Of a stretch of 44,739 nucleotides of DNA, positions 6,101 through 35,289 are shown in pieces (position 1 is the stretch's first letter; the number at the start of each line of letters is the position of its first letter). The notes under the pieces were generated by a model, which was not told where the DNA came from, ran no database searches, and worked only from the letters and a program-made list of their open reading frames with translations. The stretch is taken from the IMG/VR virus record IMGVR_UViG_3300036851_000447, positions 1-44,739 of that record; one strand, 5' to 3'. Source of the DNA: a virus. The translations under genes and the position numbers were made by a program.

Positions 6101-7550
6101 AGCCGCGGTCGTCCGGTTCCCGCCGACGACGGGCATCGAACCCGAGCCCTCGCCGGCGCCGCTGCCGATCTGGAAGCGCCTCGCGCTGATCCTCCGGGGC
6201 CTGCCCGAGCCGAAAACGAGCCCGGCCAACCTGCCGTCCTACCCGAACGCCGGGCTGACCCTTCTCGGGACGCAGGCGCCGCTCCAGTGGCAGTCCAGCG
6301 CCACGACCTACCGGATGTGGTCGCTGACCCCGTGGGTCCGGGCAGCCATCAAGATCAGGCGGGAGCAGATCGCCGCCGCCGACTGGGACATCGTCCAGTT
6401 CGACCGGGAGGGCCGCCAGTCCAAGGCCCTGTCGCGGCGGATCAGGAACCTCCTCGAAAGCCCCAACGCCCGGCAGGATTCGTTCCACTCGTTCGCCCAG
6501 GAGTTGCTGGAGGACATCCTCGTCCTCGACGGCGCGGCGGCCGAGAAGGTCCGCTACCCGAGCGGCGAACTGGCCCAAATCTGGCCCACGCCGGGTGAGT
6601 TCATCGCCGTCGATCCGCGCTGGGACGGCTCCGGCGCCCCGGACGCCAAGCGCTACTTCTACATCCCCGACGGGCAGGTCCGCGCCTCGTTCCGCAACGA
6701 GGACATGCTCTACATGATGGACAACCCGCGGACGATCTCGGCCATCGGGATCAGCCCGATCGAGGTCCTGAAGACTGTCGTCGATTCGGAGCTGGCGAAC
6801 CAGCACTACAACCGCCGGCAGGTCCTCGGCGCGGCTCCCGACGGCGTCCTGAACATCGGCGAGTCGGCGCTGCCCGAGGATGTCGCCAAGGCCAAGGGCG
6901 AGTGGAACCAGCGCGTGGCCGAGGGTGGCGCGGTCCAGATCATCGGCGGCTACAAGAGCCCGTCGTGGATGGCGTTCCGCACGAGCAACAAGGACATGCA
7001 GTTCCGCGAGTGGGAGGACTTGCTCCTGCGTTGCATCGCCGTCGTCTACGGCCTGAGCCCGATGGACCTCGGCATCACCTTCGACGTGAACCGCTCGTCG
7101 GCCGAGCAGCAGGCGACGAACACCGAGGATCGCGGCCTCCGCCCCCTGCTCGACCTGTTCCAGCGCTACCTGACCCGCAACATCGTCTGGGACGAGAGCT
7201 TCGGCGGCAAGGAGAACAACCTCAAATTCGCCTTCTCCGCGATCAACCTCAACGAGACGAAGCAGAAGGCGGACATCAACAAGATCGCCGTCGGCGGCAC
7301 GGCCTGGAAGACCGTCAACGAGGCCCGGATCATGGACGGCCGCGCGCCGTTCGGGGCCCTCGACGACGAGAACAACATCTTCAACCACATCCTCCTGATG
7401 ACGCCCAAGGGCCTGCTCGACTTGACGAAGCAGGAGTACGTCGGCGAAGAACAGCTTGCAAAGCTCGCCGCCGACGCGCAGACTGTCGCGGCAACGGCCG
7501 ACGCCAACGCGAAGGTCGCACCGCGGAATGAGGGAAGTTCCGATGCCTAG
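6084..7550 (+). CDS. portal protein (HK97 family)
   Basis: A 488-residue HK97-type portal, the dodecameric ring at the capsid vertex through which DNA passes. Family-typical stretches are LTPWVRAAIKIRREQIA near residue 76, the NPRTISAIGISPIE loop after residue 210, and the QATNTEDRGLRPLLD region near residue 345, with the variable C-terminal tail beyond residue 420. The start is GTG 6084 inside the terminase stop region; a second GTG at 6093 is possible. The gene directly follows the terminase, as usual. Unusually, the protease and capsid genes do not come next but lie 16 kb further on. Confidence 0.9.
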   Translation: MSSVAEAAVVRFPPTTGIEPEPSPAPLPIWKRLALILRGLPEPKTSPANLPSYPNAGLTLLGTQAPLQWQSSATTYRMWSLTPWVRAAIKIRREQIAAADWDIVQFDREGRQSKALSRRIRNLLESPNARQDSFHSFAQELLEDILVLDGAAAEKVRYPSGELAQIWPTPGEFIAVDPRWDGSGAPDAKRYFYIPDGQVRASFRNEDMLYMMDNPRTISAIGISPIEVLKTVVDSELANQHYNRRQVLGAAPDGVLNIGESALPEDVAKAKGEWNQRVAEGGAVQIIGGYKSPSWMAFRTSNKDMQFREWEDLLLRCIAVVYGLSPMDLGITFDVNRSSAEQQATNTEDRGLRPLLDLFQRYLTRNIVWDESFGGKENNLKFAFSAINLNETKQKADINKIAVGGTAWKTVNEARIMDGRAPFGALDDENNIFNHILLMTPKGLLDLTKQEYVGEEQLAKLAADAQTVAATADANAKVAPRNEGSSDA

Positions 7551-7683
7551 CGATCATCGCCACCAGTGCTGGCTCGTCGCCCGAGGGCGCGACTGGTTCC
7601 GCTGCCGGGCCTGTGCCTTCGAGGGCACCCTGGCCGAGGCAATCGTCCACGCGGTCGAGAACCAGTGGGACGCGACCCGGTGA
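7543..7683 (+). CDS. 46-aa zinc-ribbon-like protein
   Basis: It starts at ATG 7543 with a GAGGGAAG Shine-Dalgarno and overlaps the end of the portal gene. The protein has a His-x-Cys pair near residues 7-8 (HQC) and a Cys-Arg-Ala-Cys knuckle near residue 22, enough for one zinc site, followed by an amphipathic helix. It ends in a GTGA overlap with the GH5 gene. It belongs to the set of very small Cys-x-x-Cys proteins found between larger genes in this window. Function unknown. Confidence 0.6.
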   Translation: MPSDHRHQCWLVARGRDWFRCRACAFEGTLAEAIVHAVENQWDATR

Positions 7684-8708
7684 CGCGGAGGCCAAAGCCC
7701 GTCCCCGCCCCGGCTCCGGCACCGGTCCCCGTGACCGGCTTCGTGACCCGCAGCGGCGCGAAACTCATGCTCGACGGCCAGCCCTTCGTCATCCGTGGCT
7801 TCAACGTCTACAACGCGAACTCCCGCGGCAACTGCTGGTATAACCTCGGCTTCACCGACGGTGCTCTCGACAAGGTGCTGGCGGACGCCGGCGGCAACAC
7901 GATCCGGGCGTGGTTCTTCCAGAAGCTCGCCACGACGAACGGGGTCCGCGACTGGGCGGCGTTCGATCACACGCTCGCCGTCTGCGCAGCCCGTGGCATC
8001 AGGGTCGTGGCGACGCTCGCAAACCAGTGGGGCGACTGCGAGAACGTCTCGGGCAGCCCCATCTACAAGGACGAGGTCTGGTACAAGACCGTCTACACCG
8101 CCCGCGAGGCCGGAATGCTCGTCTCGTACCGGGACTGGGTCCGCGAGGTCGTCACCCGTTACCGGGACAACCCGACGATCCTCGCGTGGCAGTTGATGAA
8201 CGAGGCCGAGGCCCCGATGTCCTCGACGGTCGAGCAGACGTTCCGAGCGTGGGCGATCGACATGGGTTCGGTCGTGAAGGCAGCCGATACGAACCACCTC
8301 CTCAACCTCGGCTCGATGTCGTCCGGCCAGGGCGGCACGTCGAGCGGCACGAACTACCAGGACCTCCTCGCCATCCCGACCTTCGACCTCGCCGAATACC
8401 ACGACTACGGCCACCCCTTCGAGGCGATGCCCGGCGACCAGTGGAACGGCCTCGCCGCCCGGCTGGCTCAGGCCACGGCGCTCGGCAAGCCCCTGTTCGT
8501 CGGGGAGGTCGGCATCCACCTCGCGGACACGGCTGGCGACAAGGCCAAGCGAGCCAGCCTGCTCTCCGCGAAGATCAGCGCCCAGCGCGCGGCGGGCGTG
8601 GTCGGACATCTCGTCTGGGACTGGCGCGACCCGGCGCAGGCAAGCGGCGAGGACTATGAGATCACCGTCGGCGACCCGGTTGTCGCCGTGGTCGGGGCTG
8701 CCGCATGA
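7680..8708 (+). CDS. glycoside hydrolase family 5-like enzyme (cellulase/mannanase type)
   Basis: A 342-residue TIM-barrel glycosidase. After a Pro/Ala-rich tether (residues 5-18) comes a GH5-like domain. It has the early Arg in NTIRAW (Arg76), the acid/base Glu175 in QLMNEAE, the His/Tyr pair in EYHDYG (241, 243) and the nucleophile Glu276 in FVGEVG. It should cleave beta-linked polysaccharide such as mannan or glucan. No signal peptide is seen, so it may be a virion-attached depolymerase held by the Pro/Ala tether, or be released at lysis. The GTG at 7680 overlaps the preceding stop. GH5 genes are known as auxiliary genes of soil viruses; exact substrate is not predictable. Confidence 0.82.
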   Translation: MTRRPKPVPAPAPAPVPVTGFVTRSGAKLMLDGQPFVIRGFNVYNANSRGNCWYNLGFTDGALDKVLADAGGNTIRAWFFQKLATTNGVRDWAAFDHTLAVCAARGIRVVATLANQWGDCENVSGSPIYKDEVWYKTVYTAREAGMLVSYRDWVREVVTRYRDNPTILAWQLMNEAEAPMSSTVEQTFRAWAIDMGSVVKAADTNHLLNLGSMSSGQGGTSSGTNYQDLLAIPTFDLAEYHDYGHPFEAMPGDQWNGLAARLAQATALGKPLFVGEVGIHLADTAGDKAKRASLLSAKISAQRAAGVVGHLVWDWRDPAQASGEDYEITVGDPVVAVVGAAA

Positions 8709-9265
8709 TCCGCATCGCACTCGCCTTCATCGTCGGCGTGGTCGTTGCGTCCTACCTGTTCCTCGCCCAGATCGGCCTCGCCGCGCAGCCGACGAACCAG
8801 ATGCTCCTCTCGACCTGGACCTGGTCCGGCTTCTCGCCCCGCTGGACCGACGCCGACGGCGTCGAGTGCCTGTCCGACGAGAACTACTGGGACCGGACGT
8901 GGACCGCCGACAAGTTCGGCGGCACCTTCACCGCCGAGGTCTACCTCTGTCCGGTCAACCCGAACGCGCCGGGCGGTTCGAGCAACATGGACATTCATGC
9001 CTACATGGGGTTCCGCTCGGGTTCGGCCGACTTGACCGTCACCTACCCAGACGGCTCCGTCGTGGCGATGCGGCCGATGGCATCGCGCAATTCGTACGAG
9101 GTCTGCGTCGTCGCGGACTGGCTCGACCGACTGCCGGGCGTCTACACGATCACCTTCACGGCCAGCAGGGCCGTCAGTCCGGTCCTCGTCGTGAACGCCG
9201 AGCAAACCCGGCCGCCCCTCGATGCGGGCGGCTGGAATGGTTGTGCGCTGTCATGGTGGAAGTGA
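8705..9265 (+). CDS. secreted beta-rich protein
   Basis: A 186-residue protein with a clear N-terminal signal or anchor (residues 3-27, very hydrophobic, ending LAAQ, a plausible signal-peptidase site). The mature part is rich in Trp, Tyr, Gly and Thr with four or more cysteines (GVECLS, YLCPV, EVCVV, NGCAL), suggesting an exported disulphide-stabilised beta-sandwich. It overlaps the GH5 stop by ATGA, so the two are translated together and may act on the same extracellular polymer. No family is recognised. A carbohydrate-binding role is only a guess. Confidence 0.65.
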   Translation: MIRIALAFIVGVVVASYLFLAQIGLAAQPTNQMLLSTWTWSGFSPRWTDADGVECLSDENYWDRTWTADKFGGTFTAEVYLCPVNPNAPGGSSNMDIHAYMGFRSGSADLTVTYPDGSVVAMRPMASRNSYEVCVVADWLDRLPGVYTITFTASRAVSPVLVVNAEQTRPPLDAGGWNGCALSWWK

Positions 9266-17237: not shown

Positions 17238-17545
17238 GCGATCTCACGTTCGTCTCCTCCGACGATGCCCCGTCCGTCTTCGCCACCCTGGCCGACGACG
17301 ACGGGGTTCCTGATCTGTCCGGCGCGGCGGTCCGGTTCCAGATGCGGCTGGCGTCCGACCGGCGCTATGCCGTGGACGCCGCGGCCGTCATCGTCGATGA
17401 GACGACGGGCGAGGTCCGCTACGACTGGCAGCCGGGCGACCTCGCCACTCCGGGTGAGTACGTCGCCCGCTGGCGGATCACGTTCGGCGATGGCTCGGTG
17501 GAGCACACCGACCCGGCCAACACCCTGACCGTGGCCGTCCAGTGA
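17234..17545 (+). CDS. BppU-like baseplate/fibre N-terminal domain protein
   Basis: A 103-residue protein whose strand order ([12 protein letters not shown], then [12 protein letters not shown], then [14 protein letters not shown], then TLTVAVQ) resembles the N-terminal domain of phage baseplate upper proteins, an Ig-like sandwich that fixes receptor-binding fibres to the tail. It sits directly before the large collagen-like fibre, with a GTGA overlap, which fits an adaptor that anchors that fibre. Confidence 0.65.
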
Positions 17546-19959
17546 CGGAGGCGTACGTCAACGGAGCCCAGACGCGCCTGAACGGGGCGATCGACGATAC
17601 CGAGACGGCGATCTCGGTCCTCTCTGCTGCGGCACTCCCGGCCGACACCGCGGCGACGTTCCGCTGCCTGATCTGCCAGATCACGGCTGGCGTCGTCTCC
17701 AACGAGGAACTTGTCACCGTCACGAGCCGATCCGGCACGACCCTGACGGTCATCCGGGCGAGCGAGCCCTATGGCGGCGTGCAGGCCGCGGTCAGCCATG
17801 CCGACGGCGAGTTCGTCACCGTCGTCCTGACTGAGGCATCGCTGGCCCTGATCGGTGGCGCCACCGGGGCGACCGGCCCGTCCGGTTCGACTGGCCCCAC
17901 GGGGCCGTCGGGTGCCGACGGCAGGACCATCCTCAACGGCTTCGGTGCGCCGGATTCCTCACTGGGCGAGGACGACGACTTCTACATCGACCTCGATGCC
18001 AACGACATCTACGGGCCGAAGTCGGGCGCCTCGTGGGGCTCGCCCGCCTCGTACGTCGGACCTCCCGGCAACGAGGGCGCGACCGGTCCGCAGGGTCCCG
18101 TCGGGCCATCCGTGCTCAACTTCCTCGGCGACTGGGACTCGGGCACCGCCTACGTCCAGAACGACTGGGTCGTCTTCGGCTCGGACAGTTACGTCGCGCT
18201 CGGCAGCAGCACCAACCAGCAGCCCGATGTCAGCCCTTCGGACTGGGCCATCCTCAACATCAGCGGGCCGGCCGGTCCGACCGGTGCGCAGGGCGATCCG
18301 GGCGACCCCGGTGATCCGGGCGCTCCCGGCATCGACGGCGCCGATGGGGCAACGGGGGCCACCGGGCCGACCGGTGCGACAGGTGCGACGGGATCGAGCA
18401 TCACCGGGGCAACCGGCACGGCGGGTTCGGCTGGTTCGGCTGGCGCCACAGGAGCCACAGGTCCGCAGGGCATCCAGGGTGTCACGGGTGCGCAGGGCCA
18501 GCAGGGCGATGTCGGCCCGGCCATCCTGACCTTTCAGGGCGACTGGGGCTCTGGCACGACGTACGACGCGAACGACTGGGTGTCCTTCGGCGGGACAGGT
18601 TACTGGTCCCTAGTCGGCAGCAATACGAACCATCAGCCGGACACGAGTCCGTCGTTCTGGTCCCTTCTCACGATCTCGGGGCCGCAGGGCCCGCAGGGTA
18701 TTCAGGGCCCGCAGGGTGCCGTCGGCTCGACCGGCCCGCAGGGCACCGCGGGAACGGCCGGTGCCACGGGCGCCACAGGCGCCACCGGGGCGACGGGATC
18801 AGGATCGACCGGCGCGACAGGTCCGACAGGAGATGCTGGTGCGGCGGGTCCTTCCGGCGCAGGTGCCCTGACCGGACGCCTGGCCGCGGCGATGACCCTG
18901 TCGGCAACGACAATGTCGATCACGGTGAACGGCGAGTGGCCCACGATCCCGACCGACCTCGCCAGCTTCAACGTCCTGATCGACAACGAACTCATCACCG
19001 TACAGGCGACGAGCGGCACAGGCTCGACGAAGACGTATTCCTCTCTCCTGCGAGGGCGCTTCGGTACCTCGGCCACGGCCCACAACAAGAACGCCGTAGT
19101 CTCCCTTCGAGCCCTGATCGGGCCGACCGGCCCGCAGGGTGCAACCGGTACGGCAGGATCAGCTGGGGCAACCGGCGCCACGGGATCGGTGGGTGCTACC
19201 GGCTCCGCAGGTGTCACAGGCCCAACGGGCGCGACAGGGAGTGGTGCCACCGGGGCGACAGGGGCCACCGGTGCAACGGGTTCGGTCGGCGCCACGGGCG
19301 GCGCCGGGGCGACTGGTGCGACGGGCGCAAGCGGCTCGTCAGTCGCGTTCCTTGACTCACCCGCCCTGAACCCCACGATTGGCGACGAGTACGACGGGGC
19401 CTCGCTCAATGCTCGCTGGACCAGGATGAGCGGAAGCTACGTCATCACCTCGGGCGATGAGGTTTATCAGGCGGGCAACGGGTCGTTCCTTCGCATCGCG
19501 CTCACTACTCCGGTCGGTGGCTCGGTCTCGAAAGGGTATTACCAGGATGGTCTGACCCTTCCGACGGACTGGGAGATCGTGGCTGACCATGTCGTGTGGA
19601 ACAACTTTGACACGATGATGATCGGGCCCGGTGCCGCTGCGGGGGCGGCGGACGGAATAGCTGTCGTCATGTGGGCCGGTGCGCTTCGCCTGATCGGTGT
19701 GCAACCGAGTGCTGGTTATGGGGGCATCATCGCCAGTGGGGTCTCAGTTGCTAGGCCGCCCGCTGGAACCCGTGTCTGGATGCGTCTTCGCAAGGCCGGG
19801 TCCTCATACTTCGGTGCTTATTCGCTCGATGGGATCAACTGGAGCCCCGAAGTCTCGACCCCAACCGGCGGCGGCGTCTGCACGCGCGTCTACAACGGCT
19901 GCTACTACATGAACAGCACGGACAATGCGATGGCCCTTGATCGCTTCAATCTTGTCTAA
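17542..19959 (+). CDS. collagen-like tail fibre with CBM5/12-like repeats and C-terminal lectin-like domain
   Basis: An 805-residue fibre. An N-terminal domain (1-105) is followed by Gly-X-Y segments at about residues 106-126, 243-325, 380-440 and 526-600, mostly GAT and GPT triplets. Two related 47-residue modules (194-240, 331-377) contain [27 protein letters not shown] and a final Trp, as in chitin-binding CBM5/12 modules. The last 200 residues form a Gly/Trp/Tyr-rich jelly-roll-like domain ([19 protein letters not shown]) of the lectin type. It probably trimerises as a collagen helix and binds host polysaccharide. Start GTG 17542. Sequence near 19380-19900 looks less GC-rich, hinting at domain exchange. 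Confidence 0.85.
17857..19341 (+). repeat. collagen-type Gly-X-Y coding repeats, fibre 1 (interrupted)
   Basis: Four blocks of degenerate 9-base repeats coding for Gly-Ala-Thr, Gly-Pro-Thr, Gly-Ser-Ala and Gly-Pro-Gln triplets are interrupted by the CBM-like and linker domains. Thr or Gln dominates the Y position. Codon choice is varied (GGC, GGG, GGT, GGA; ACC, ACG, ACA), which keeps protein repeats while limiting exact DNA repeats. Confidence 0.8.
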
Positions 19960-19969
19960 GGTGTCTCCC

Positions 19970-21001
19970 GTGGCTCAGTTCGGCGTCGTCGCCATTGTCA
20001 AGGACGAGGAAGACAGCGTCGGGCGAATGCTGGCCTCGGTCGGCGAATGCCCGACGACGATCGTCGATACCGGCAGCACCGACGGGACGATCGAGCGCCT
20101 AGCCGAGATGGGAGTCATCGCGCACGAGGTCCCGTTCGTCAACTTCGGACAGGCGAGGAGCGCGGCGTTCTCACTGGCCCGCGGGTCTGCCGACTGGCTG
20201 CTCGCGCTCGATGCGGACATGACGGTCGAGATCGACCCTGACTTCGAGCCCGATCCGGCGGTCGATGCCTACATGCTCCGCCTCGGCTCGGACGACTTCA
20301 GCTACCGCCTGCCGCTCCTGCTCCGAGGCGATCTCCAGTGGCAGAGCATCGGTGCCTGCCACGAGTACACGGCCCTCCCCGACCGGGCCTACGTCAGCCG
20401 GCCGACCGACAAGGTACGGATCACGAACCACGGCAACAGCCGGTGGAGCAGGGAGAAGTCGCTCTGGCAACTCGGGCTCCTCGAAGCCGAGCTGGCTGAG
20501 CAGCCGACCAATGCCCGGACGGTCTTCTACCTCGCCAACACGCTCTGGGACCTCGGCCGGACCGCTGAGGCGCTGGCGATGTACCGGCGCCGCAACGAGA
20601 TGTCGGGCTGGGTCGAGGAGACCTTCTACAGTCGCTATCGGTTCGCCCTCTGTCAGCCGACATGGCCCGCCCGGATGCTGGCCCTGATCGACGCATGGGA
20701 GTACCGGCCGGGGCGACTGGAGCCAGCTCACGAGCTGGCCCGCGAGTTCAACCTCCGCGGCCAGCACCACAGCGCCTATCGTTTCGCGTCCCTGCCGGTT
20801 GTCGAGCCACCCGACAACCTGTTCGTCCACCGTGGCGTGTACGAATGGGGCATGGACTTCGAGCGCTCGATCAGCGCGTGGTGGCTCGGCAAGTGGGACG
20901 AATTCGACGCCCTGACGGAACGCCTGCTCGACAATCCTCGCTTGCCGGGCAACATCCGCGAAGCCGTCATTCGGAATCGGGAGTGCGAGCGCGCCGCCTG
21001 A
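19970..21001 (+). CDS. family 2 glycosyltransferase with helical-repeat tail (SunS-like)
   Basis: A 343-residue protein. The GT2 core has VDTGSTDGT (32-40), a hallmark of the SunS-like/TPR-linked group, and LALDADM (78-84) for the metal. From about residue 165 onward helix pairs with TPR-like spacing (TVFYLANTLWDLGRTAEALAMYRRR) follow. In this group the helical part often recognises a protein acceptor, and SunS itself glycosylates a peptide. Position between two collagen-like fibres makes the fibres plausible acceptors (inference). GTG 19970 is preceded by TAAGGTG; GTG 19961 is an in-frame alternative. Confidence 0.85.
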   Translation: MAQFGVVAIVKDEEDSVGRMLASVGECPTTIVDTGSTDGTIERLAEMGVIAHEVPFVNFGQARSAAFSLARGSADWLLALDADMTVEIDPDFEPDPAVDAYMLRLGSDDFSYRLPLLLRGDLQWQSIGACHEYTALPDRAYVSRPTDKVRITNHGNSRWSREKSLWQLGLLEAELAEQPTNARTVFYLANTLWDLGRTAEALAMYRRRNEMSGWVEETFYSRYRFALCQPTWPARMLALIDAWEYRPGRLEPAHELAREFNLRGQHHSAYRFASLPVVEPPDNLFVHRGVYEWGMDFERSISAWWLGKWDEFDALTERLLDNPRLPGNIREAVIRNRECERAA

Positions 21002-22423
<1,422 letters not shown>

Positions 22424-22442
22424 CAGACAGGGAGAGGGAACC

Positions 22443-23684
22443 TTGCCTCGACTACTCGTCATCGGGGATGCAGGCGTGCATTCCGGCTTCGGGACCGTCG
22501 TTCACCAGATCGGCGAACGGCTTGTCAGCCAGCATGGCTGGGACGTGCATGTCATCGCGGCGAACTTCCGCGGCGATCACGTTGACACGAACCTGAAGCT
22601 GTACGTCGCCAACCTCCTCCAGCCATACGACATCCACGGCCTCAGCCGGTATGTCGAACTGCTCGGCAAGCTCGTGCCGGACGCGATCCTGTTCGTGAAC
22701 GACCCATCGGTCGTGCTCAACAGCCTGTTCCGCAATGCGTGGGACAGCGACCGCATCCTCCTCAACGGCGTCAGGATCGGGGAGAACCTGTACCGGCCGC
22801 CGATCCTCGCCTACATGCCGATCGACGGCTACAACTCGCCGCGGTCGTGGGACGCAATGGTCCCGCGGGTGAAGCGGATCGCGATGAGCCACCACGGCCA
22901 GACCGCCATGCCGGAGGCCCCGGTGATCTGGCACGGGGTTGACAACACCGTATTCAAGCCTCGTAACAGGAAGGCTTCCAAGAAGGCTCTCGGTTTCGAT
23001 CCCGACAAGTTCCTCGTCCTGCGGGTGGACAAGAACTTCCACCGGAAGGACTATCCGGCGACGTGGAAGGCGCTCCGGCCGGTGCTTCGCAAGTACCCCC
23101 GGATCGCGGTCCATTTCCACTGCCAGCCCGAGACGCCGCAGGGCCACAACCTGCACGCGGTCATGTGGAACGACGAGGACATCCGCGGCCGGGTGACATT
23201 CAGCCCGATGATGGACGGCTGGCACGGCTGGGGACTGGAGGAGATCGCGACGCTCTACTCGGCTGCCGACCTGTTCGTCAGCACGAGCCAAGGGGAAGGC
23301 TTCGGCCTGACCCTGCTGGAAAGCCTCGCGAGCGGCACGCCGGTCATCGCCGGCGACCACAGCTCGATCACCGAGGTCGTTGGCCCCGGCGGCGTGCTCA
23401 TTCCACCCGTGGGGCTCATCTCGAACCCGATGGGCCAGGAGCAGTGCCTCCCCGACATCGCTCGCTTCAGCCGCGAGATCGAGCATCTGTATCAGGCAGG
23501 CGGCGTCCGTCGCAAGCTCGCCGAGGCGGGTGTCGAGCACGCCCAGAAGTTCAGTTGGGACGTGGCCGCCAAGATGTTCAACGACCACCTGCTCGCCGAG
23601 ATCGCGAAGGGAGGGGCCGATGCCGTATCAGACAACGGCGGACCTCCCGGCGGCGATCCGGTCGAAGTACGGGCCGCGGTGTAG
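22443..23684 (+). CDS. GT-B family glycosyltransferase (GT4-like)
   Basis: A 413-residue two-domain glycosyltransferase. The N-terminal Rossmann domain has GDAGVHSGFGTVV (8-20). The C-terminal donor domain shows VLRVDKNFHRKDYP, then ADLFVSTSQGEGFGLTLLES with the EX7E pair (Glu285, Glu293), then ASGTPVIAG. A sugar nucleotide is the likely donor. The start is TTG 22443 after a GAGAGGGAA site; no ATG or GTG fits as well. The last about 22 residues are Gly/Pro-rich and are encoded in a region that overlaps the next gene by 65 bases, so this C-terminal tail is probably an add-on. Confidence 0.88.
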   Translation: MPRLLVIGDAGVHSGFGTVVHQIGERLVSQHGWDVHVIAANFRGDHVDTNLKLYVANLLQPYDIHGLSRYVELLGKLVPDAILFVNDPSVVLNSLFRNAWDSDRILLNGVRIGENLYRPPILAYMPIDGYNSPRSWDAMVPRVKRIAMSHHGQTAMPEAPVIWHGVDNTVFKPRNRKASKKALGFDPDKFLVLRVDKNFHRKDYPATWKALRPVLRKYPRIAVHFHCQPETPQGHNLHAVMWNDEDIRGRVTFSPMMDGWHGWGLEEIATLYSAADLFVSTSQGEGFGLTLLESLASGTPVIAGDHSSITEVVGPGGVLIPPVGLISNPMGQEQCLPDIARFSREIEHLYQAGGVRRKLAEAGVEHAQKFSWDVAAKMFNDHLLAEIAKGGADAVSDNGGPPGGDPVEVRAAV

Positions 23685-25005
23685 CCGAGCCTTCCTCCAC
23701 GCCTTCAACAGCGTCTATGACAAGAGCGGCGAGTCACGCGCCTTTGCCGCCGGCCATTCCGCAGCCCAACGCTGCCAGCAGTCTCGAAAGGAGACAGGCA
23801 TGGACATCGCGCCGCTGGCAGCCGGGAAGCTGCCGCGACTCACCCCCGGAGAGTTCCGGTTCACGACCAAGGCCATCGTGCCCGAGCAGTCGCCCGAGGG
23901 GCGCCGCCGGTTCCGCACGATCGCCTCATCGACCGTCCTCGATATCCGCGGCGACGAGATCAAGCTGTCGGCCCTCCAAGACATGGAGGCGGCCTTCAAG
24001 CGGGGCGTCACCATCTTTATGAACCACAAGTACGACGCGCCGGATTCCGGGTTCGGCATGTCGGACTGGGCGGAGATCAGGGACTCGGGCGTCCGTGACT
24101 CGAAGTCCGGCCTTCCCATCTACGACCTCCACGTGGCGGGCTTCGTGGACGAGAGCAATCCCAAGGCGATCCAGTTGTCCGACTCGATGGCCGGCGGGAT
24201 GCGCTGGGGGACCTCGGTCGGGGCCATCGTCAAGAAGCACGTTCGCAATGCAGTTGGCGGCATGGACATCGAGCATGTCGATCTGAAGGAAGGAAGTATC
24301 GTGGGCATCCCGATCAACCAGCGCTCGTGGGTCCAGAAGGCGGCCAATGCCGCAGCCAGTCTCGAAGACGCAGCCGCGGTCGGCCTGCTCGACGACGAAT
24401 CCGACGATGAGCCGGAGACGACGCCCGAGCCTGCCCCTGCGGCAGCGGCGGAGACCATCACCGCGGGCGTCGAGACGGGGATGATCGACCCCACGAACAG
24501 CACGATCTCAACCACGACGCCGGAAACCCCGGCCGTCGAAAACGACAAGCCAGCCGAGCCGGAGACCGATATCCCGGTCGGCGACGCAACCAGCGATCCA
24601 TCGTCGGATGGTCAGAAAGCTGAAGGGGCGACCCCTGAACCCGCCAAGGGTCAGGAAGCCGAAGGAGCGACCCCTGAGACAGCATCCGATGACAAGGCGG
24701 CCGACACCGAGCCGGAAACGGACAAGGGTGTCGCCGCGGCCGACGTGAGCAAGCTGCTCATTCAGGTCCGGGGCCTGGTCGAGGAGATCGGCGCACTCCG
24801 CACGGAGAACGTCCGTCTCACCGACGAGATCACGACCCTGAAGGCAGTCCACACCGAGGCCGAGGCCATCAAGGACACCGTCGAGAAGATCATGGGCCTG
24901 CCCCTCCAGCGCAAGGCTGTGGACATGCTCGGAGCACTTCCCGAACGGTTCCCCCAGATGGACCCCGCCGTCATCAAGGCCATCCAGCGAATCCAGGAGA
25001 AATAG
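23620..25005 (+). CDS. ChaB-prohead protease-scaffold fusion
   Basis: A 461-residue protein with three parts. Residues 1-55 (PYQTTADLP to AFAAGHSAAQRC) match the small ChaB domain. Residues 75-245 are an HK97-type prohead protease with His136 in IFMNHKY and Ser199 in WGTSVGA. Residues 250-375 are an acidic Pro/Glu linker, and residues 375-450 a coiled coil (RGLVEEIGALRTENVRL) like a scaffold. It should guide procapsid assembly and then cleave itself and the capsid delta domain. ATG 23620 follows a GGGAGGGG site. A second ATG at 23800 also has an AAAGGAG site, so a shorter protease without ChaB may also be made. Confidence 0.85.
   Translation: MPYQTTADLPAAIRSKYGPRCSRAFLHAFNSVYDKSGESRAFAAGHSAAQRCQQSRKETGMDIAPLAAGKLPRLTPGEFRFTTKAIVPEQSPEGRRRFRTIASSTVLDIRGDEIKLSALQDMEAAFKRGVTIFMNHKYDAPDSGFGMSDWAEIRDSGVRDSKSGLPIYDLHVAGFVDESNPKAIQLSDSMAGGMRWGTSVGAIVKKHVRNAVGGMDIEHVDLKEGSIVGIPINQRSWVQKAANAAASLEDAAAVGLLDDESDDEPETTPEPAPAAAAETITAGVETGMIDPTNSTISTTTPETPAVENDKPAEPETDIPVGDATSDPSSDGQKAEGATPEPAKGQEAEGATPETASDDKAADTEPETDKGVAAADVSKLLIQVRGLVEEIGALRTENVRLTDEITTLKAVHTEAEAIKDTVEKIMGLPLQRKAVDMLGALPERFPQMDPAVIKAIQRIQEK
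23787..23802 (+). promoter_or_regulatory. internal ribosome-binding site and start within protease gene
   Basis: AAAGGAG at 23787-23793 lies six bases before an in-frame ATG at 23800. Initiation here would give a 401-residue protein that begins MDIAPL at the protease domain and lacks the ChaB part. The site is as strong as that of the first start at 23620. Confidence 0.55.
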
Positions 25006-26306
25006 TGGGCGAGAACTTCGACATCCAGAACGTCCTGCGGACTCTCGACGAGTTCGGCAGCACGTTCAAGGCAGCGGGCGAAAACCCGCGCCCGGCCGAA
25101 CTCGCGGGAGTCGGCGACGGTCTCGGCACGCAGCCGGGGCTGGCGCATCTCCTCAGCGAGACCGACCGGCTCTATCTCCAGCGCGGTCTGATGCAGCTCA
25201 ACAACCAAGAGCTGGTCGGCCTGTTCGCGCGTCAGTTGAACGCTGGCGCCGGCAAGGGCGTCCCGATCGCGCAGGCGTGGTCCTACCAGACGATGGAGGC
25301 GATGGGGCAGGACCCGATCATCTCCAAGGCGCTCGACACCTCGGGTGGCGCGGCGCTCCAGAGGCAGGACCTCGAACCGATCCTCTATCCCATCTTCGTG
25401 CGGGCGTTCCCGGCGTTCGATCGGCTTCGCAAGATTCCGTCGAACGGCGTCGTCCACACGTGGAACCAGATCACCGACTACGGTGATGCGCAGTTCATGG
25501 CGGAACTCGGCACGGTCACGGACGACACGGCGACGTACGTCCGCCAGACCACGAACATCGCGCAGCTCGGCACCCGCCGGGGCGTGACGTTCAAGGAGCA
25601 GCTTGCTGTTCCTGCCGGCGGCATGAACTGGAACCCCGGCCAGATCGAAATCCAGCAGGGCCTCACCGCGATGGCCCACAAGCTCCAGAAGACGATCTTC
25701 CAGGGCCAGGCGTCGAACTCGGGCGGCACGGCGTCGAACGAGCTTGGCCTGTACGACCCCAACGGGTTCACGGGTCTCCGCTCGATCCTGAACACCGCCG
25801 ACGCGGTGAACAGCCAACCGTACCTCACCTCGAACCCGGACCAGATGGTCTCGGCAATCGGCGAGGCGGTCATCCCGATCACCGACAACATCGGCATCCC
25901 ACCGACGATCATCTTCGCTCGGGCGACCGAGGTCCAGAAGTTCGCGGATCAGGAGCGGACGCTCCAGCGGTTCGTGGACCGGACGGAAGTCGTGCCCGGC
26001 GTCATGGTCCCATCGGTGGCGACCTCGGTCGGCATCCTGCCGATCCTGTCGGTGCCCGGCGACTCGATCGGCACCTACACGGCGACCTCGACCTTCGACG
26101 GCAACACCGTGGCCGACACCTACGTCATCAACGAGCAGACGATCGCTCTGCCGTACCTCGGTTCGCCGGGGCCGTCGATCATCGAAATCCCGCCGGGCGT
26201 GTCGGGCCAGCTCACGCGGCTCTACATCGTCTGGGCGCTGATGGGCCTCGCGGTCGAGGTCCTTCCGGCGAACAACAAGATTCGCAACGACCTCGGAACG
26301 TCCTAG
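25005..26306 (+). CDS. major capsid protein (HK97 fold)
   Basis: A 433-residue capsid protein directly downstream of the protease, starting at GTG 25005 after an AGGAGA site and overlapping the previous TAG by one base. Residues 1-100 are helical and Gln/Asn-rich, suited to a cleavable N-terminal arm. Beyond that the sequence follows the HK97-like order of E-loop, long spine helix (IQQGLTAMAHKLQKTIFQG, about 212-230) and P/A-domain strands (VIPITDNIGIPPTIIFA; RLYIVWALMGLAVEVL near the end). The protein forms the icosahedral shell. Identification rests on position, size and these patterns. Confidence 0.85.
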   Translation: MGENFDIQNVLRTLDEFGSTFKAAGENPRPAELAGVGDGLGTQPGLAHLLSETDRLYLQRGLMQLNNQELVGLFARQLNAGAGKGVPIAQAWSYQTMEAMGQDPIISKALDTSGGAALQRQDLEPILYPIFVRAFPAFDRLRKIPSNGVVHTWNQITDYGDAQFMAELGTVTDDTATYVRQTTNIAQLGTRRGVTFKEQLAVPAGGMNWNPGQIEIQQGLTAMAHKLQKTIFQGQASNSGGTASNELGLYDPNGFTGLRSILNTADAVNSQPYLTSNPDQMVSAIGEAVIPITDNIGIPPTIIFARATEVQKFADQERTLQRFVDRTEVVPGVMVPSVATSVGILPILSVPGDSIGTYTATSTFDGNTVADTYVINEQTIALPYLGSPGPSIIEIPPGVSGQLTRLYIVWALMGLAVEVLPANNKIRNDLGTS

Positions 26307-29675: not shown

Positions 29676-30107
29676 GTGGCCGCAAACTCAGACGTTCGGC
29701 TTCCAGGCACGAACGGCGCGATCTATCTCGGCGGCGCGGCCAGCGGCGGTGGCACTCGTGTCGCAGCCAAGACCGGCTTCACCTTCAGCAACACCCGCGA
29801 CTTCTTCGACGGCTCGGCGTTCGGCGACTCCAACAAGCGTTGGTTCGGCGGACTTCGGGACGCCCAGGGAACGTGGGAGGGCCTGTACGACGCCTCGGGC
29901 GACAACCTCGTCATCGCGTCAGCCCTCGGCCCGCAGCTCATCTACATCTACGCCGACGACGACACCGGCGGATCGTCGATCGGCCTCTACGAGGTGGCCC
30001 ACGGCTCGGGCTACATCGACGGTACCGTCAACGTCAGCCTCAACGACATGGCGAAGGCATCGGGCAACTTCCGTGCCGCGGCCAACTGGGACATCTTCGA
30101 CGGTTGA
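29676..30107 (+). CDS. major tail (tube) protein
   Basis: A 143-residue protein starting at GTG 29676 after GAAAGGA. It is Gly/Ser/Asp-rich with strand patterns (RLPGTNGAIYLGG, PQLIYIYADDD, YIDGTVNVSLND) suitable for a tube subunit. It is followed by a strong hairpin that may set high expression and precedes the chaperone and tape measure genes. The small size is at the low end for a tube protein. Assigned by position and composition. Confidence 0.7.
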   Translation: MAANSDVRLPGTNGAIYLGGAASGGGTRVAAKTGFTFSNTRDFFDGSAFGDSNKRWFGGLRDAQGTWEGLYDASGDNLVIASALGPQLIYIYADDDTGGSSIGLYEVAHGSGYIDGTVNVSLNDMAKASGNFRAAANWDIFDG

Positions 30108-30207: not shown

Positions 30208-30636
30208 ATGGCCGGTGACGCGCCCGTCATCCGCGGGCCCGACGACATCCGCAACCTGACCGCGAAGTTCCGTACGGACCGCGGCTCGCACTTCGCCGTC
30301 ATCCGGGGGCGGGACGGCTTCATCACCGCCGCCGCCGGAGCCAAGGTCGCCATCTTCTCCAGATGGCGGATCGAGCATTCGGGCAACAAGCCCGACGGCA
30401 CGCCGCGGCATCGCTTCCGGGGCCAGTTCTCGTGGGTCAACGAGCCGCTGATGAACATGGTCACGAGCGGCAAACTCAAAGGCCGCGTGATCCTCCAGGG
30501 CAAGTTCAAGAACGGCGCCGAGAACGTGGACATCCTCGGCTGGGCGGAGTGGCGCATGGAGAACGGCGTCCTGACGCTCGAAGACATCTACCAAGTCGAG
30601 GGCGTGAAGTTCCGCCCGATCGACGACACGCGATGA
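30208..30636 (+). CDS. hypothetical tail-region protein, 142 aa
   Basis: Starts at ATG 30208 after a GGAGGGAAA site, just past the hairpin. The protein is basic and beta-rich (RGSHFAVIRGRDGF, KVAIFSRWRIEH, FRGQFSWVNE, VILQGKF, ENVDILGWAEW), with a repeating strand layout that resembles tail tube-like domains. It could be a second, minor tube-type protein or a chaperone partner. The next gene overlaps its stop. Confidence 0.55.
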   Translation: MAGDAPVIRGPDDIRNLTAKFRTDRGSHFAVIRGRDGFITAAAGAKVAIFSRWRIEHSGNKPDGTPRHRFRGQFSWVNEPLMNMVTSGKLKGRVILQGKFKNGAENVDILGWAEWRMENGVLTLEDIYQVEGVKFRPIDDTR

Positions 30637-30833
30637 ACTTCGATCACGCCAAGTACGGCGACCTCATCGAGGGCCCGGACGGCGTCTTCATGGTTCTCTA
30701 CCGCCGCCCCAGCGTCAATGAAGTACGTGCGGTCAGGATTCGGGATAACCCATCGAATCGAATAGGCGATCTCATCTACCTGACGCGCCTCTATCCGGGC
30801 CAGTGGCTCGACACAGACAAGAGAGGGACCTAG
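30633..30833 (+). CDS. hypothetical protein, 66 aa
   Basis: An ATGA overlap at 30633 and a stop two bases before the chaperone start make this a tight member of the tail operon. The 66 residues are beta-rich (DGVFMVLYRRPSV, VRAVRIRD, IGDLIYLTRLYPGQW), possibly a small SH3-like barrel. Slightly lower GC than its neighbours around 30710-30770. Function unknown. Confidence 0.55.
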   Translation: MNFDHAKYGDLIEGPDGVFMVLYRRPSVNEVRAVRIRDNPSNRIGDLIYLTRLYPGQWLDTDKRGT

Positions 30834-30835
30834 CG

Positions 30836-31198
30836 ATGGCAGCGAAGACCGACAAGCCGAACGGCGTTGAGCACAAGATGGGGGACGTGATCGAGCGAGG
30901 GGCCCTCGATGACGGCCGGCCTTTCCACGACATCTTCCTCGGCGAGGGCAAGACCTATCGGGTCACGCGCATCTGGGTCAAGGACGCCGACGCGGCGTGG
31001 GACGCCAGCCAGTTGCCGGATGACAAGGGCTTCAATCCGCGGCTCAACAGCCGCCTCCGCCTCGCGTCGTCCATCGTCGATCCGGCGACCACCATCGACG
31101 ACTTCGATCGCCTGACCGAGGTCGAGTTGTCGGCCCTGTTCCGGGGCTTCGGTCGCCTGAACGAACTGCCGCGGGCGGACGACTCGGGAAACGCCTGA
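30836..31198 (+). CDS. tail assembly chaperone, short form (gpG-like)
   Basis: A 120-residue protein directly upstream of the frameshift site and tape measure gene, in the place of lambda gpG. It starts at ATG 30836 after GAGAGGGAC. The sequence is acidic at its end (NELPRADDSGNA) and helical near residues 88-112. Ribosomes that do not slip stop at TGA 31196. Together with the extended form below it should chaperone the tape measure protein during tail assembly. Confidence 0.75.
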   Translation: MAAKTDKPNGVEHKMGDVIERGALDDGRPFHDIFLGEGKTYRVTRIWVKDADAAWDASQLPDDKGFNPRLNSRLRLASSIVDPATTIDDFDRLTEVELSALFRGFGRLNELPRADDSGNA

Positions 31199-31231
31199 CG
31201 GCCTCCGCCGCCAAGAAGCGGCGCGAGGCCG
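31186..31231 (+). promoter_or_regulatory. programmed -1 ribosomal frameshift signal
   Basis: The heptamer GGGAAAC (31186-31192) is read as G-GGA-AAC in the chaperone frame, exactly the X-XXY-YYZ layout. Six bases later a stem of 13 bp starts: CGGCCTC (31199-31205) with GAGGCCG (31225-31231) and CGCCGC (31206-31211) with GCGGCG (31218-31223), a bulged C at 31224 and the loop CAAGAA. Slippage moves ribosomes into the frame ending at 31515. Lambda uses the related GGGAAAG at the same place in its tail genes. Confidence 0.88.
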
Positions 31232-31515
31232 GTCATCCCGATCGGTTCTATCTCACCTCCTTCGAGGAAGGGCGCGCGTCCCTCGCCCGGTGGTGGCGGA
31301 CGATCCCGTCTGCCCTGTCGGCACCGGGCGTCACGGCCTACGACCTCGCGGTCATGGCCGAGTTCCGCGAACGTGTCGTCGCCGCAGAGGCGGAACTCCA
31401 GCGCAAGCTGAAGTACGGCCTGCCCATCGACGACAACACCCGGCGCCACCGGGGCCGCGGCCCGAAGCCCGGCGATACCATCGAGCACGGCGGCAAGAGA
31501 GCCGTCGAGTGGTGA
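31192..31515 (+). CDS. tail assembly chaperone, frameshift extension (gpT-like part)
   Basis: An open frame, -1 relative to the upstream gene, with no usable start codon near its beginning. After slippage on GGGAAAC the ribosome reads CGC-CTG-ACG and continues for 107 residues to TGA 31513-31515, giving a fusion of about 226 residues. The extension is basic (KKRREAGHP), contains DRFYLTSFEEG and WWRTIPSAL and a helix YDLAVMAEFRERVVAAEAELQ. This is the gpGT-type chaperone that binds the tape measure protein. The tape measure gene follows 12 bases later. Confidence 0.85.
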   Translation, partial: RLTASAAKKRREAGHPDRFYLTSFEEGRASLARWWRTIPSALSAPGVTAYDLAVMAEFRERVVAAEAELQRKLKYGLPIDDNTRRHRGRGPKPGDTIEHGGKRAVEW

Positions 31516-31527
31516 GAGGAGGTAGCC

Positions 31528-34500
31528 GTGGCTGAGGAGTCAGAGCAGGTCGGCGGCATCTCCATCGGTGCGTCCATCGACGACAGCCAGGTCGATGCCG
31601 GGCTGAACGCGCTTCTCGCCAAGATGGAGGCTGCCTCCAAGCGCCTCTCGGCCGCCCTCTCCATCCAGCCGGGCATCAGTGGCGCTCCGGGCGCCGGCGC
31701 GGCGCCACGGGCCCAGCAGCCCGCCAAGATCACGTTCGGGGCGGCAGCCCGGCAGGGCGCCCAGGGCAGCGAGGCGTCGGCCTTCACCCGCCGGGTCAAC
31801 GAGGAGCTTGCCAAGAACGGCCAGGCCCTCGTGGATGGCGTGGTCGTCCAGATCGACAAGGCGAAGCAGCAGACCGTCCAGCAGGTCAGCCGGGCCGTCA
31901 ACACGGGGACCGGCCAGCAGGCGACCTCGATCGCCGTCAACCTCGACCCGAGCGAGTTCCGCGAGCAGTTCGCGTCGTTCCTCGGCGACCTGAAGTCGAT
32001 GATGGCGCAGGCGTCGCAGATGGCGACCATCAGCCCTCAACTCGATGACGACAGTCCCGGTGGGGGCGGTGCGAAGTCAAAGAAGTCCCGGCGCAAGAAC
32101 ATCCGCGACCGCTCGATCGGTACCGAGGCCGACCCGAACCGCATCTACACGTTCGACCCGGCGGTCTACGCCGAGGAAGACGCCGTCCGCGAAGGGAAGG
32201 CCAACCAGCAGCGGCAGGCCGCTCTGACGGCCCACGAGCGCCGCCGCACCAGCACCTCGGATGCCGAGCAGCGCTTCCTCAATGCCATCTCGGCGCCGAC
32301 CACGTCGGGTGGCTTCGAGCAGGACCTCCGCGAACTGTCCTACGAGGCCCAGCACGAGGGCAGCGCCGGGCGCACATCGTCCACGTTCGCCGGGAACACG
32401 CGGACCCCAGCCCAGATTGCCGCGTTCCGCGAGGAGGAGGAGCGCCGCGCCAACCAGCAGGCTCCGCGCCGGTTCAGCGCCGCCGAGCAGGCCGAACTGG
32501 AGCGCCGCCGGGCCCGGACATCGGTTTCGGGGGCTGATCGTTACCAGCTTCCATCCGAGCGACCCGGTCGCGCTGGCACTGGCGGCGGCCGGGCTGTCAG
32601 GACGACCGAGGAGGACCTTGCTCGCCGGTCGGAGCAGCAGATCGCGATCAGCGAATCGCAGCGCCTCACCGCGGCCCGGACCTCGCGAACCTTCGCCTCG
32701 GGCCTCGGCGGGTTCTTCCTCGGCCAGACCCGCCAGCAGGCCGAGGCGGCATCCACGCTGCGGCGCAACGAGCAGGAACTCGCCATCGCCCGGCGGCGCC
32801 TGAACGACCCCGAGATCATCCGCAACACCCGCTCCTACCGGCAGGCGCAGGAGGAAGTCGCGGTCGCCGAGAACAAGGTCGCCGCGTCGCTCCAGAAGGT
32901 CCAGTCGTTCACCTCCGGCACGTCGGCGGCCCGGACCCTCGCCGCGGTCACGGTGGCGGGCGCGGCATTCGGGCTCGGCCTGAAGGCGGTTGATTTCGTC
33001 ATCGCCTCGGTCGGCGCGGGCCTCTCCAACCTGATCGAAATCCAGACCGGCTTCGTCGGCACCTCGTCGCGGGTGACGGGTGAACTGGCGAAGCAGACGA
33101 GCGCCCTCCACGGCAACGTCGATGCCGTGCTCGCCAATGCCGAGGCCAACGCGGGCCTGTCCACGGCGGGTGCAGATGCGGTCAACAGCCAGTTGCGCCT
33201 TGCGACCCAGATCAAGGCGGGCGCACTGGCCCAGCAGCAGGCATCCGACCTGTTCCGGGCGGCGCAGGGTGCCGGTGGAGCCCAGAACGGCCTGACCGGC
33301 GGCTTCGGCGGCCTGTTCGGAACGAGCCTGTTCGGCCAGCAGTTGGGCGGCGGTCGCGGTCTCTCGGAACTGATCCAGGAGGATGTGTCGTCCCTGTCCG
33401 GCAAGCGCGGCGAGAACCCGCTGGCGGGCATCAGCCAAGGGCTGTCCTATGTCCTCAACAAGGATGTCCGCGACACCGTCGATGATCTGGCCCGCCAGCA
33501 GGGTCGCCCGACTCCGGGCGCGCCCTTCGAGGCGGCCCTTCGCTACAACCCGATCCTCGGTCCGGTGGTCGGTGCAGTCGCGCCGCCGTCGGGGCAGCGG
33601 CAGGGTGTCGGTACCTTGGGCGAGCGGGGCCCTGCCCCAGCCGGCGGCGACGAACTGACCGCCTACCTCAACGACCTGACCGCTGCCGCAGATCGGGGGG
33701 CCTCGGCGACCGACCATGCCTCGCGGGTGCAGGTCGTCTACACCTCGAACACCGAGGAAGTGGCCCGCGCCGCCACTGCCGCCGCCGCGGCCGGGGATGC
33801 CTACGGCGTGACGCTGGCTCGCCAGTCGGGCGTCGTCCTGAAGCTCAACGGTGAGGTGGCCGATACCGCCGAGGAGTACAAGAAGGCGCTGGAGCAGATC
33901 GCCGTCGGCCGGTCACGGATCGACCCCGACGTGCTGCGCCGCCAGTTCGAGTTCGAGATGCCCGCGATCATCGCCGGGGCCGCTCGCCAGCAGAACTTCG
34001 CCCTCAACCAGCAGCAGCCATCGCAGGCAGCCCTCGGCAACCTCGCCCAGCCGCTTCTCCCGGTCGGTACCGGCATCGCGGCCAATGCCGACGAGCAGCA
34101 GCGTCTCGTGGCGGGCCAGCAGCGGAGCACCGAACTCCAGAAGCAACTCAACGACTACTACGCGGAGGGCCGACAGGTCATCGAGGACACGTACCGCCCG
34201 GCGATCGTCGCCAACTTCGGCGAAGCGGCGGGCGCGGCGTTCGACGAAGTCCTCGGCAAGATCACTGCCAACGGCCAGGAGATCGCCAAAATCCAGGCCG
34301 GGATCAGCAACGAGCAGGCCGCCTACCAGACGGCCCAGTACAACTTCCAGCTCCAGATCGCCAAGCGGACCCTGTCCGACATCGGTGGCCTGACCGGCAA
34401 GAACTTCGGCGCGGGCGAGAGCTATCTCGGGACCCTCGAACGGCAGAACCTCGCCCTGTCGCGGCAAGGCCAACTGCTCCAGTTCAACCTGTCCCAGCGC

Positions 34501-35289
34501 CAGATCAACTTCCAGACGGCCCTCGCCGGGTTCCAGGCGCCGGGCGTCACCCCCGAGGAGCGGCAGGCCCGGATCGAGGAGGCCAAGATCGAGGCGAGCT
34601 TCGCCCAGAAGCAACTCGACATCCAGCGCCAGATGTTCGGCAATCAGGTCCAGATTGTGGACATCAGCAACCTCCGGCAGGGCGCCGATCTCGCCCGCCA
34701 GATCGGCCTGCTCCTCCAGGGCCGCGAGGTCACGATCGACACGGCGCAGGCCCAGGAGAAGCTGGCCCTCCTCGCCACGCAGCAGTCGATCCTCGTCAAC
34801 AAGGCCGGGACCTATCTCGGCACGATCAACAACCTGACCTCGATCGCGTTCGGCCAAATCCAGCAACTCGAAACCGCGGCTGGCCGGGCGATGTACTCGA
34901 CCGCCTACTCCGTGCTCGACGCCTTCGGCATCCTCCTGACCGGCCTGACGACCCAGGTGAACGAGGTCGGCGGTGGTTCAACCGGCGGCGGCGGACCGGC
35001 CGGCGGCGTGGTCCCGATGGCCGGCGGCGGCGTGGTCGATATCAACCAGCCGACCCGACTCGGCGCGAACGGGCTGATCGGCGAGGTCGCCGGGGAGACC
35101 GCGGTCGTCCTCTCCCATCCGCGGGCCCTGCTCGAAAGCGGCGAAGGCGGAGGTCCGGTCATCATCCAGATCACGGGCGACAACTACTTCAACAACGGCA
35201 CCGATATGGATCAACTGGTCCGGCGGGTGACGAAGGAACTCGGTCGTGACGCATCTCTCCGCGGCCTCCGCGGCGTCGGGATCGGCTGA
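31528..35289 (+). CDS. tail tape measure protein
   Basis: A 1253-residue protein starting at GTG 31528 after GAGAGGAGG. It is Ala/Gln/Arg-rich with long helices and a hydrophobic membrane-like segment at about residues 470-500 (TLAAVTVAGAAFGLGLKAV). A second Gly-rich stretch near residues 1150-1180 precedes the conserved-looking end GLIGEVAGETAVVLSHPRA. It spans the tail lumen, sets tail length and is thought to help DNA cross the cell envelope. By the usual rule of about 0.15 nm per residue, the tail would be near 190 nm long (inference). Confidence 0.92.
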   Translation: MAEESEQVGGISIGASIDDSQVDAGLNALLAKMEAASKRLSAALSIQPGISGAPGAGAAPRAQQPAKITFGAAARQGAQGSEASAFTRRVNEELAKNGQALVDGVVVQIDKAKQQTVQQVSRAVNTGTGQQATSIAVNLDPSEFREQFASFLGDLKSMMAQASQMATISPQLDDDSPGGGGAKSKKSRRKNIRDRSIGTEADPNRIYTFDPAVYAEEDAVREGKANQQRQAALTAHERRRTSTSDAEQRFLNAISAPTTSGGFEQDLRELSYEAQHEGSAGRTSSTFAGNTRTPAQIAAFREEEERRANQQAPRRFSAAEQAELERRRARTSVSGADRYQLPSERPGRAGTGGGRAVRTTEEDLARRSEQQIAISESQRLTAARTSRTFASGLGGFFLGQTRQQAEAASTLRRNEQELAIARRRLNDPEIIRNTRSYRQAQEEVAVAENKVAASLQKVQSFTSGTSAARTLAAVTVAGAAFGLGLKAVDFVIASVGAGLSNLIEIQTGFVGTSSRVTGELAKQTSALHGNVDAVLANAEANAGLSTAGADAVNSQLRLATQIKAGALAQQQASDLFRAAQGAGGAQNGLTGGFGGLFGTSLFGQQLGGGRGLSELIQEDVSSLSGKRGENPLAGISQGLSYVLNKDVRDTVDDLARQQGRPTPGAPFEAALRYNPILGPVVGAVAPPSGQRQGVGTLGERGPAPAGGDELTAYLNDLTAAADRGASATDHASRVQVVYTSNTEEVARAATAAAAAGDAYGVTLARQSGVVLKLNGEVADTAEEYKKALEQIAVGRSRIDPDVLRRQFEFEMPAIIAGAARQQNFALNQQQPSQAALGNLAQPLLPVGTGIAANADEQQRLVAGQQRSTELQKQLNDYYAEGRQVIEDTYRPAIVANFGEAAGAAFDEVLGKITANGQEIAKIQAGISNEQAAYQTAQYNFQLQIAKRTLSDIGGLTGKNFGAGESYLGTLERQNLALSRQGQLLQFNLSQRQINFQTALAGFQAPGVTPEERQARIEEAKIEASFAQKQLDIQRQMFGNQVQIVDISNLRQGADLARQIGLLLQGREVTIDTAQAQEKLALLATQQSILVNKAGTYLGTINNLTSIAFGQIQQLETAAGRAMYSTAYSVLDAFGILLTGLTTQVNEVGGGSTGGGGPAGGVVPMAGGGVVDINQPTRLGANGLIGEVAGETAVVLSHPRALLESGEGGGPVIIQITGDNYFNNGTDMDQLVRRVTKELGRDASLRGLRGVGIG

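Follow-up and report, generated by a model that had tools for sequence, protein, structure and literature searches.

A putative lambda-type −1 ribosomal frameshift in the tail chaperone gene of an uncultivated phage lineage

A long-known programmed frameshift in a phage tail gene is the G/G-T tail chaperone frameshift of lambda (PMC5009743), which occurs at the heptamer GGGAAAG. In the actinobacteriophages, including Bxb1 and the SEA-PHAGES set, the equivalent gene likewise undergoes a −1 shift: the heptamer GGGAAAA is used by some of their chaperone frameshifts (PMC11749239), GGGGGAA is reported for all the "fivetwo" sites in the SEA-PHAGES data (PMC10885494), and in Bxb1 that same GGGGGAA stands at the end of gp20, with the joined gene being annotated as the product of ribosomal slippage. 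Beyond the bacterial hosts, the haloarchaeal viruses HCTV-1 and HCTV-2 have g-t frameshifts at G_GGA_AAC and A_AAA_AAC (PMC5009743).

The DNA considered here, hereafter the window, is a whole IMG/VR virus record of 44,739 bases, and its tail chaperone gene very probably contains a −1 ribosomal frameshift of the lambda G/GT type, at the heptamer GGGAAAC. The window shares with lambda the place between the major tail protein and tape measure genes, the −1 direction, and the class of the heptamer; but differs from lambda in having AAC rather than AAG as the A-site codon, in the position of the zero-frame stop, in the strong and simple hairpin that follows that stop, and in proteins that are not recognisably similar by sequence. 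The frameshift is of a long-known kind—the same trick as that of lambda and many other phages—which interpretation is well supported, and the result adds to the range of the lambda-type chaperone frameshift an uncultivated lineage of phages, in which neither the chaperone nor the major tail or major capsid protein had a match among the 50,697 phage records searched.

Slip site and reading frames in the window

The features on which the argument turns, all on the forward strand, are the following:

29676..30107, forward strand: major tail protein (PHROG 10528/9522)
30208..30636, forward strand: small gene between the major tail protein and the chaperone, conserved in the nearest relatives
30836..31198, forward strand: putative zero-frame tail assembly chaperone (G-like), 120 aa; an open frame with TGA at 31196–31198
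31186..31192, forward strand: slippery heptamer G GGA AAC, from the sequence and from an in-phase XXXYYYZ counterpart in 17 of 19 relatives
31193..31515, forward strand: −1 frame extension (T-like), 107 codons plus stop; an open frame, whose motif A-R-x-W/F-x-x-x-P is kept in relatives
31196..31198, forward strand: zero-frame stop TGA, one codon past the heptamer, a spacing shared by 15 of the 20 sites
31199..31231, forward strand: hairpin of 13 bp with a CAAGAA loop and one bulge, from folding and the comparison with control positions
31528..35289, forward strand: tape measure protein, 1253 aa, from its length, its position, and tblastn homology to the ORFs at the same place in three relatives (L002–L004)

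The gene order therefore runs from the major tail protein through one or more small ORFs to the chaperone, the extension, and the tape measure gene, with two overlapping ORFs lying between the major tail protein and tape measure genes. The small gene at 30208–30636, which had no family match, is 54% identical to positions 4743–5057 of the nearest relative, L002, and is found in L005 and L006 as well. Between that gene and the chaperone we also observed an ORF of 66 residues (30633–30833) that overlaps its upstream neighbour at an ATGA and had no match in L002.

The zero-frame ORF ends in GAC GAC TCG GGA AAC GCC TGA, in which the GGGAAAC at 31186–31192 is phased for a simultaneous −1 slip to GGG AAA, as a first-pass annotation of the same DNA had proposed, and is the sole XXXYYYZ string (with Y being A or T) within 30836–31515. 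The −1 frame is open from 31024, reads GK-RLTASAAKK across the junction—the first new codon being the CGC that starts at 31192—and stops at 31513–31515, 12 bases before the start of the tape measure gene, in agreement with the 107-residue extension just 5' of that gene that had been claimed. In random codon strings drawn with the phage's own codon usage, the chance of such an in-phase heptamer in the 57-codon overlap was about 4%.

Regarding the downstream structure, a stable fold is predicted to begin within some 5–9 nt after the heptamer, and folding reproduced the hairpin of the first-pass annotation in all its details, namely the 13 pairs, the CAAGAA loop, the single bulge, and the start six bases after GGGAAAC. 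Only one of the pairs is A-T, the bulged base is a C, and the energy is −26.9 kcal/mol. The fold of 31186–31245 had a z of −3.78, with none of 200 shuffles being equally stable, while the hairpin ranked in the top 0.4% of the same-phase, same-offset positions within 2.4 kb on either side (p = 0.004; surrounding 5 kb). These heptamer and hairpin statistics, good as they are, are not conclusive for one sequence, and the window taken singly is suggestive of a frameshift; we therefore sought relatives, which make the evidence decisive.

Conservation of the site among relatives

As single sequences, the chaperone was unmatched in phages and in IMG/VR and the extension was unmatched in IMG/VR, which results led us to reach the relatives through the major capsid protein (25005–26306). 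In addition, the DNA of the chaperone/extension gene pair had no match in the phage record search, and the major tail protein as the sole query found no relatives. The capsid protein matched three IMG/VR relatives, and an alignment of the resulting four capsid proteins yielded 25 IMG/VR loci in all. Nineteen of the 25 loci, reached through capsid proteins mostly about 40–70% identical, cover the region after the major tail protein and, with the window, constitute the family of 20 sites; L010, L019, and L021 end before or near that region and are outside the 19, while in L024 and L025, which yielded no frameshift candidate, a major tail protein could not be recognised.

All 19 covered relatives contain an ORF of about 100–130 residues that is followed by an extension of 56–90 codons in the −1 frame, with the tape measure gene coming next in those relatives whose contig extends so far. 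The first-pass annotation had named relatives without the heptamer, or with separated frames, as the observation that would speak against it; the −1 relation was found in 19 of 19, and an in-phase canonical XXXYYYZ in 17, among which GGGAAAC was the commonest, followed by GGGAAAA, CCCAAAC, and AAAAAAC. The two exceptions, L014 and L006, still need a −1 shift. In L014 (site at about 8719–8760) the heptamer is GGGGGAA with the stop 18 nt later—the same string and the same distance as in Bxb1—indicating that the type of site varies within one lineage. In L006 the equivalent place (6278–6284) has GTCAAAC, and the −1 extension is intact; that string should slip poorly, which expectation counts against the frameshift reading. 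L006 would have either a site of low efficiency or some other way of slipping.

Among the 18 canonical sites (the window and 17 relatives), the A-site codon is AAC in 15, AAA in three, and AAG in none, in departure from E. coli practice, and the AAC bias may in part come from the CGN arginine codon that is next in the −1 frame. Both of the HCTV-1 and HCTV-2 sites are also used in this family, though the host group differs and the comparison is by site only. When all the loci were scanned blindly, on either strand, for the layout of an ORF, a heptamer, a near stop, a short extension, and a long ORF, the same sites were returned in the loci that reach the tape measure gene, while contigs ending before enough of that gene could not satisfy the layout. 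The scan gave one other candidate, a TTTTTTC in L026, which we did not count as a family member because its stop is 51 nt away and the tail genes are unrecognised.

Over the whole family, compact hairpins beginning 4–9 nt past the site were stronger than those at control positions (Fisher p 6e-5, or 6e-4 without the window). A search for a convincing compact stem past the slip site found none in L007, L016, L017, and L018, and with several members thus lacking one we rejected the notion of a universal family hairpin. L005, L006, and L023 have in common a 22-nt hairpin beginning just past the stop; as read by eye, both sides of its fifth pair change, with T-A in L006 as against G-C in the other two.

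Overlapping phage genes are commonly translated by re-initiation, and the two ORFs might be separate genes, with the extension being translated anew after termination and with no frameshift at all. In some EA subclusters of the Microbacterium phages, two chaperone ORFs are apparently expressed separately (PMC7302621). The first-pass annotation was inexact in describing the extension frame as being devoid of a start codon, for an in-frame ATG is present at 31354, 53 codons from the end. That ATG, however, is the window's only in-frame start and comes after the conserved ARWWRTIP motif (at about 31285), so that a start there could not make the conserved part; and of the 18 relatives in which a motif was located, nine more have no start ahead of it. 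Since re-initiation, moreover, would not keep an in-phase heptamer in 17 of 19 relatives, we regard it as highly improbable. Slippage of the RNA polymerase instead of the ribosome might be imagined for L008 and L015, whose slip sites contain A6C runs; but the homopolymers in GGGAAAC and CCCAAAC do not exceed three bases, a length too short for that enzyme, and transcriptional slippage is accordingly even harder to credit. Finally, indels that split one continuous gene are possible in metagenomic contigs, but the recurrence of this −1 break at the equivalent position in 19 other contigs reduces an error of sequencing or assembly to a practically negligible probability.

The frameshift reading is, by comparison, upheld by the 19 relatives, by the gene order, and by the family matches to be described below. 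Its consequence is a correct gene model for such genomes, whose extension would be lost to a simple gene caller.

The two predicted products and the proposed mechanism

The zero-frame proteins of the family align around a T-Y-x-x-R-E-L-S core, and half of the 18 chaperone members (nine) have a match to PHROG 344, a tail assembly chaperone family, with a best E of 3.2e-5; a few members weakly match the XkdN/TAC families. The window's chaperone and extension had no protein family match when queried singly, and the former aligns with the members that match PHROG 344. The fold predicted for the window chaperone has a mean pLDDT of 86, and its top matches among solved structures are the HK97 chaperone (2ob9) and YqbN (3klu), at non-significant E values of 0.14–0.19; its matches among viral folds include several annotated chaperones, with E from 0.004 upward. 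No fold match had an E below 0.001, and PDB sequence profiles gave no credible match. The identification of the zero-frame protein as a tail assembly chaperone is thus supported by the relatives' family matches and, more weakly, by the predicted fold.

The extensions, for their part, have in common a K-R-L where the frames join and a helical motif, A-R-x-W/F-G-x-x-P, which conservation points to translation of the −1 frame into protein. In the window, about 20 extra residues precede the motif and overlap the hairpin.

We infer that slippage occurs, at a rate that would leave its product in the minority. Most ribosomes would read TCG GGA AAC GCC and terminate at the TGA, giving the chaperone of 120 residues; a minority, with tRNAs on GGA and AAC, would move back by one base onto GGG and AAA, a step that the hairpin beginning right past the stop probably helps, and would then read 107 more codons to form a G-T type fusion. 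If assembly proceeds as in lambda, the shorter product would serve to coat the tape measure protein and the longer one to bring in the major tail protein.

Position of the zero-frame stop and genomic surroundings

At 15 of the 20 sites, exactly one codon separates the heptamer from the zero-frame stop (+3), the other stops being at +6, +12, +12, +18, and +18. The +3 stop arises from a −1 frame codon pair of L, V, or M followed by T, S, or K, with the first codon being CTG, CTA, GTA, or ATG and the next base always A; and is kept despite changes in residue and codon (CTG|A, CTA|A, GTA|A, ATG|A). Given the residues, the probability of a +3 stop is 0.11–1.0 per site and about 1e-6 over the twelve non-redundant +3 members, though this last figure overstates the case, as those members were chosen for having the stop and are related.

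Elsewhere the stop is farther away: 15 nt from the heptamer in lambda, 24 in TP901-1, 18 in Bxb1 (as counted from the sequence), and 26 on average in the SEA-PHAGES set (PMC10885494), as against 3 nt in the window and most of its family. HK97 was left out as a yardstick because our scan recovered no in-phase canonical heptamer near its stop. These distances, together with the +3 pattern, make a selected stop position plausible on sequence grounds. That the recoding signal might be a tight unit of fixed layout—the heptamer, a single sense codon, the stop, and often a hairpin—in which the stop position is itself under selection is a suggestion that we offer tentatively and consider rather doubtful as yet; the stop would perhaps tune the slippage, or the release before the hairpin. 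In either event, the 20 sites constitute a natural series in which to study why the stop is placed one codon past the slip site, and would also be useful with respect to how AAC-ended heptamers work in phages.

As to the remainder of the genome, the capsid alignment found no relative in bacterial and archaeal genomes, the window contains no tRNA genes, and the portal and terminase matches were below 30% identity and spread over many hosts. Directly past the portal gene is a glycoside hydrolase family 5 (cellulase-like) gene (7566–8708), a cargo that is unusual for this position. About 17 kb separate the portal gene (6084) from the capsid gene (25005), an interval in which, at 17542–23684, two genes for collagen-like fibres are interleaved with two for glycosyltransferases.
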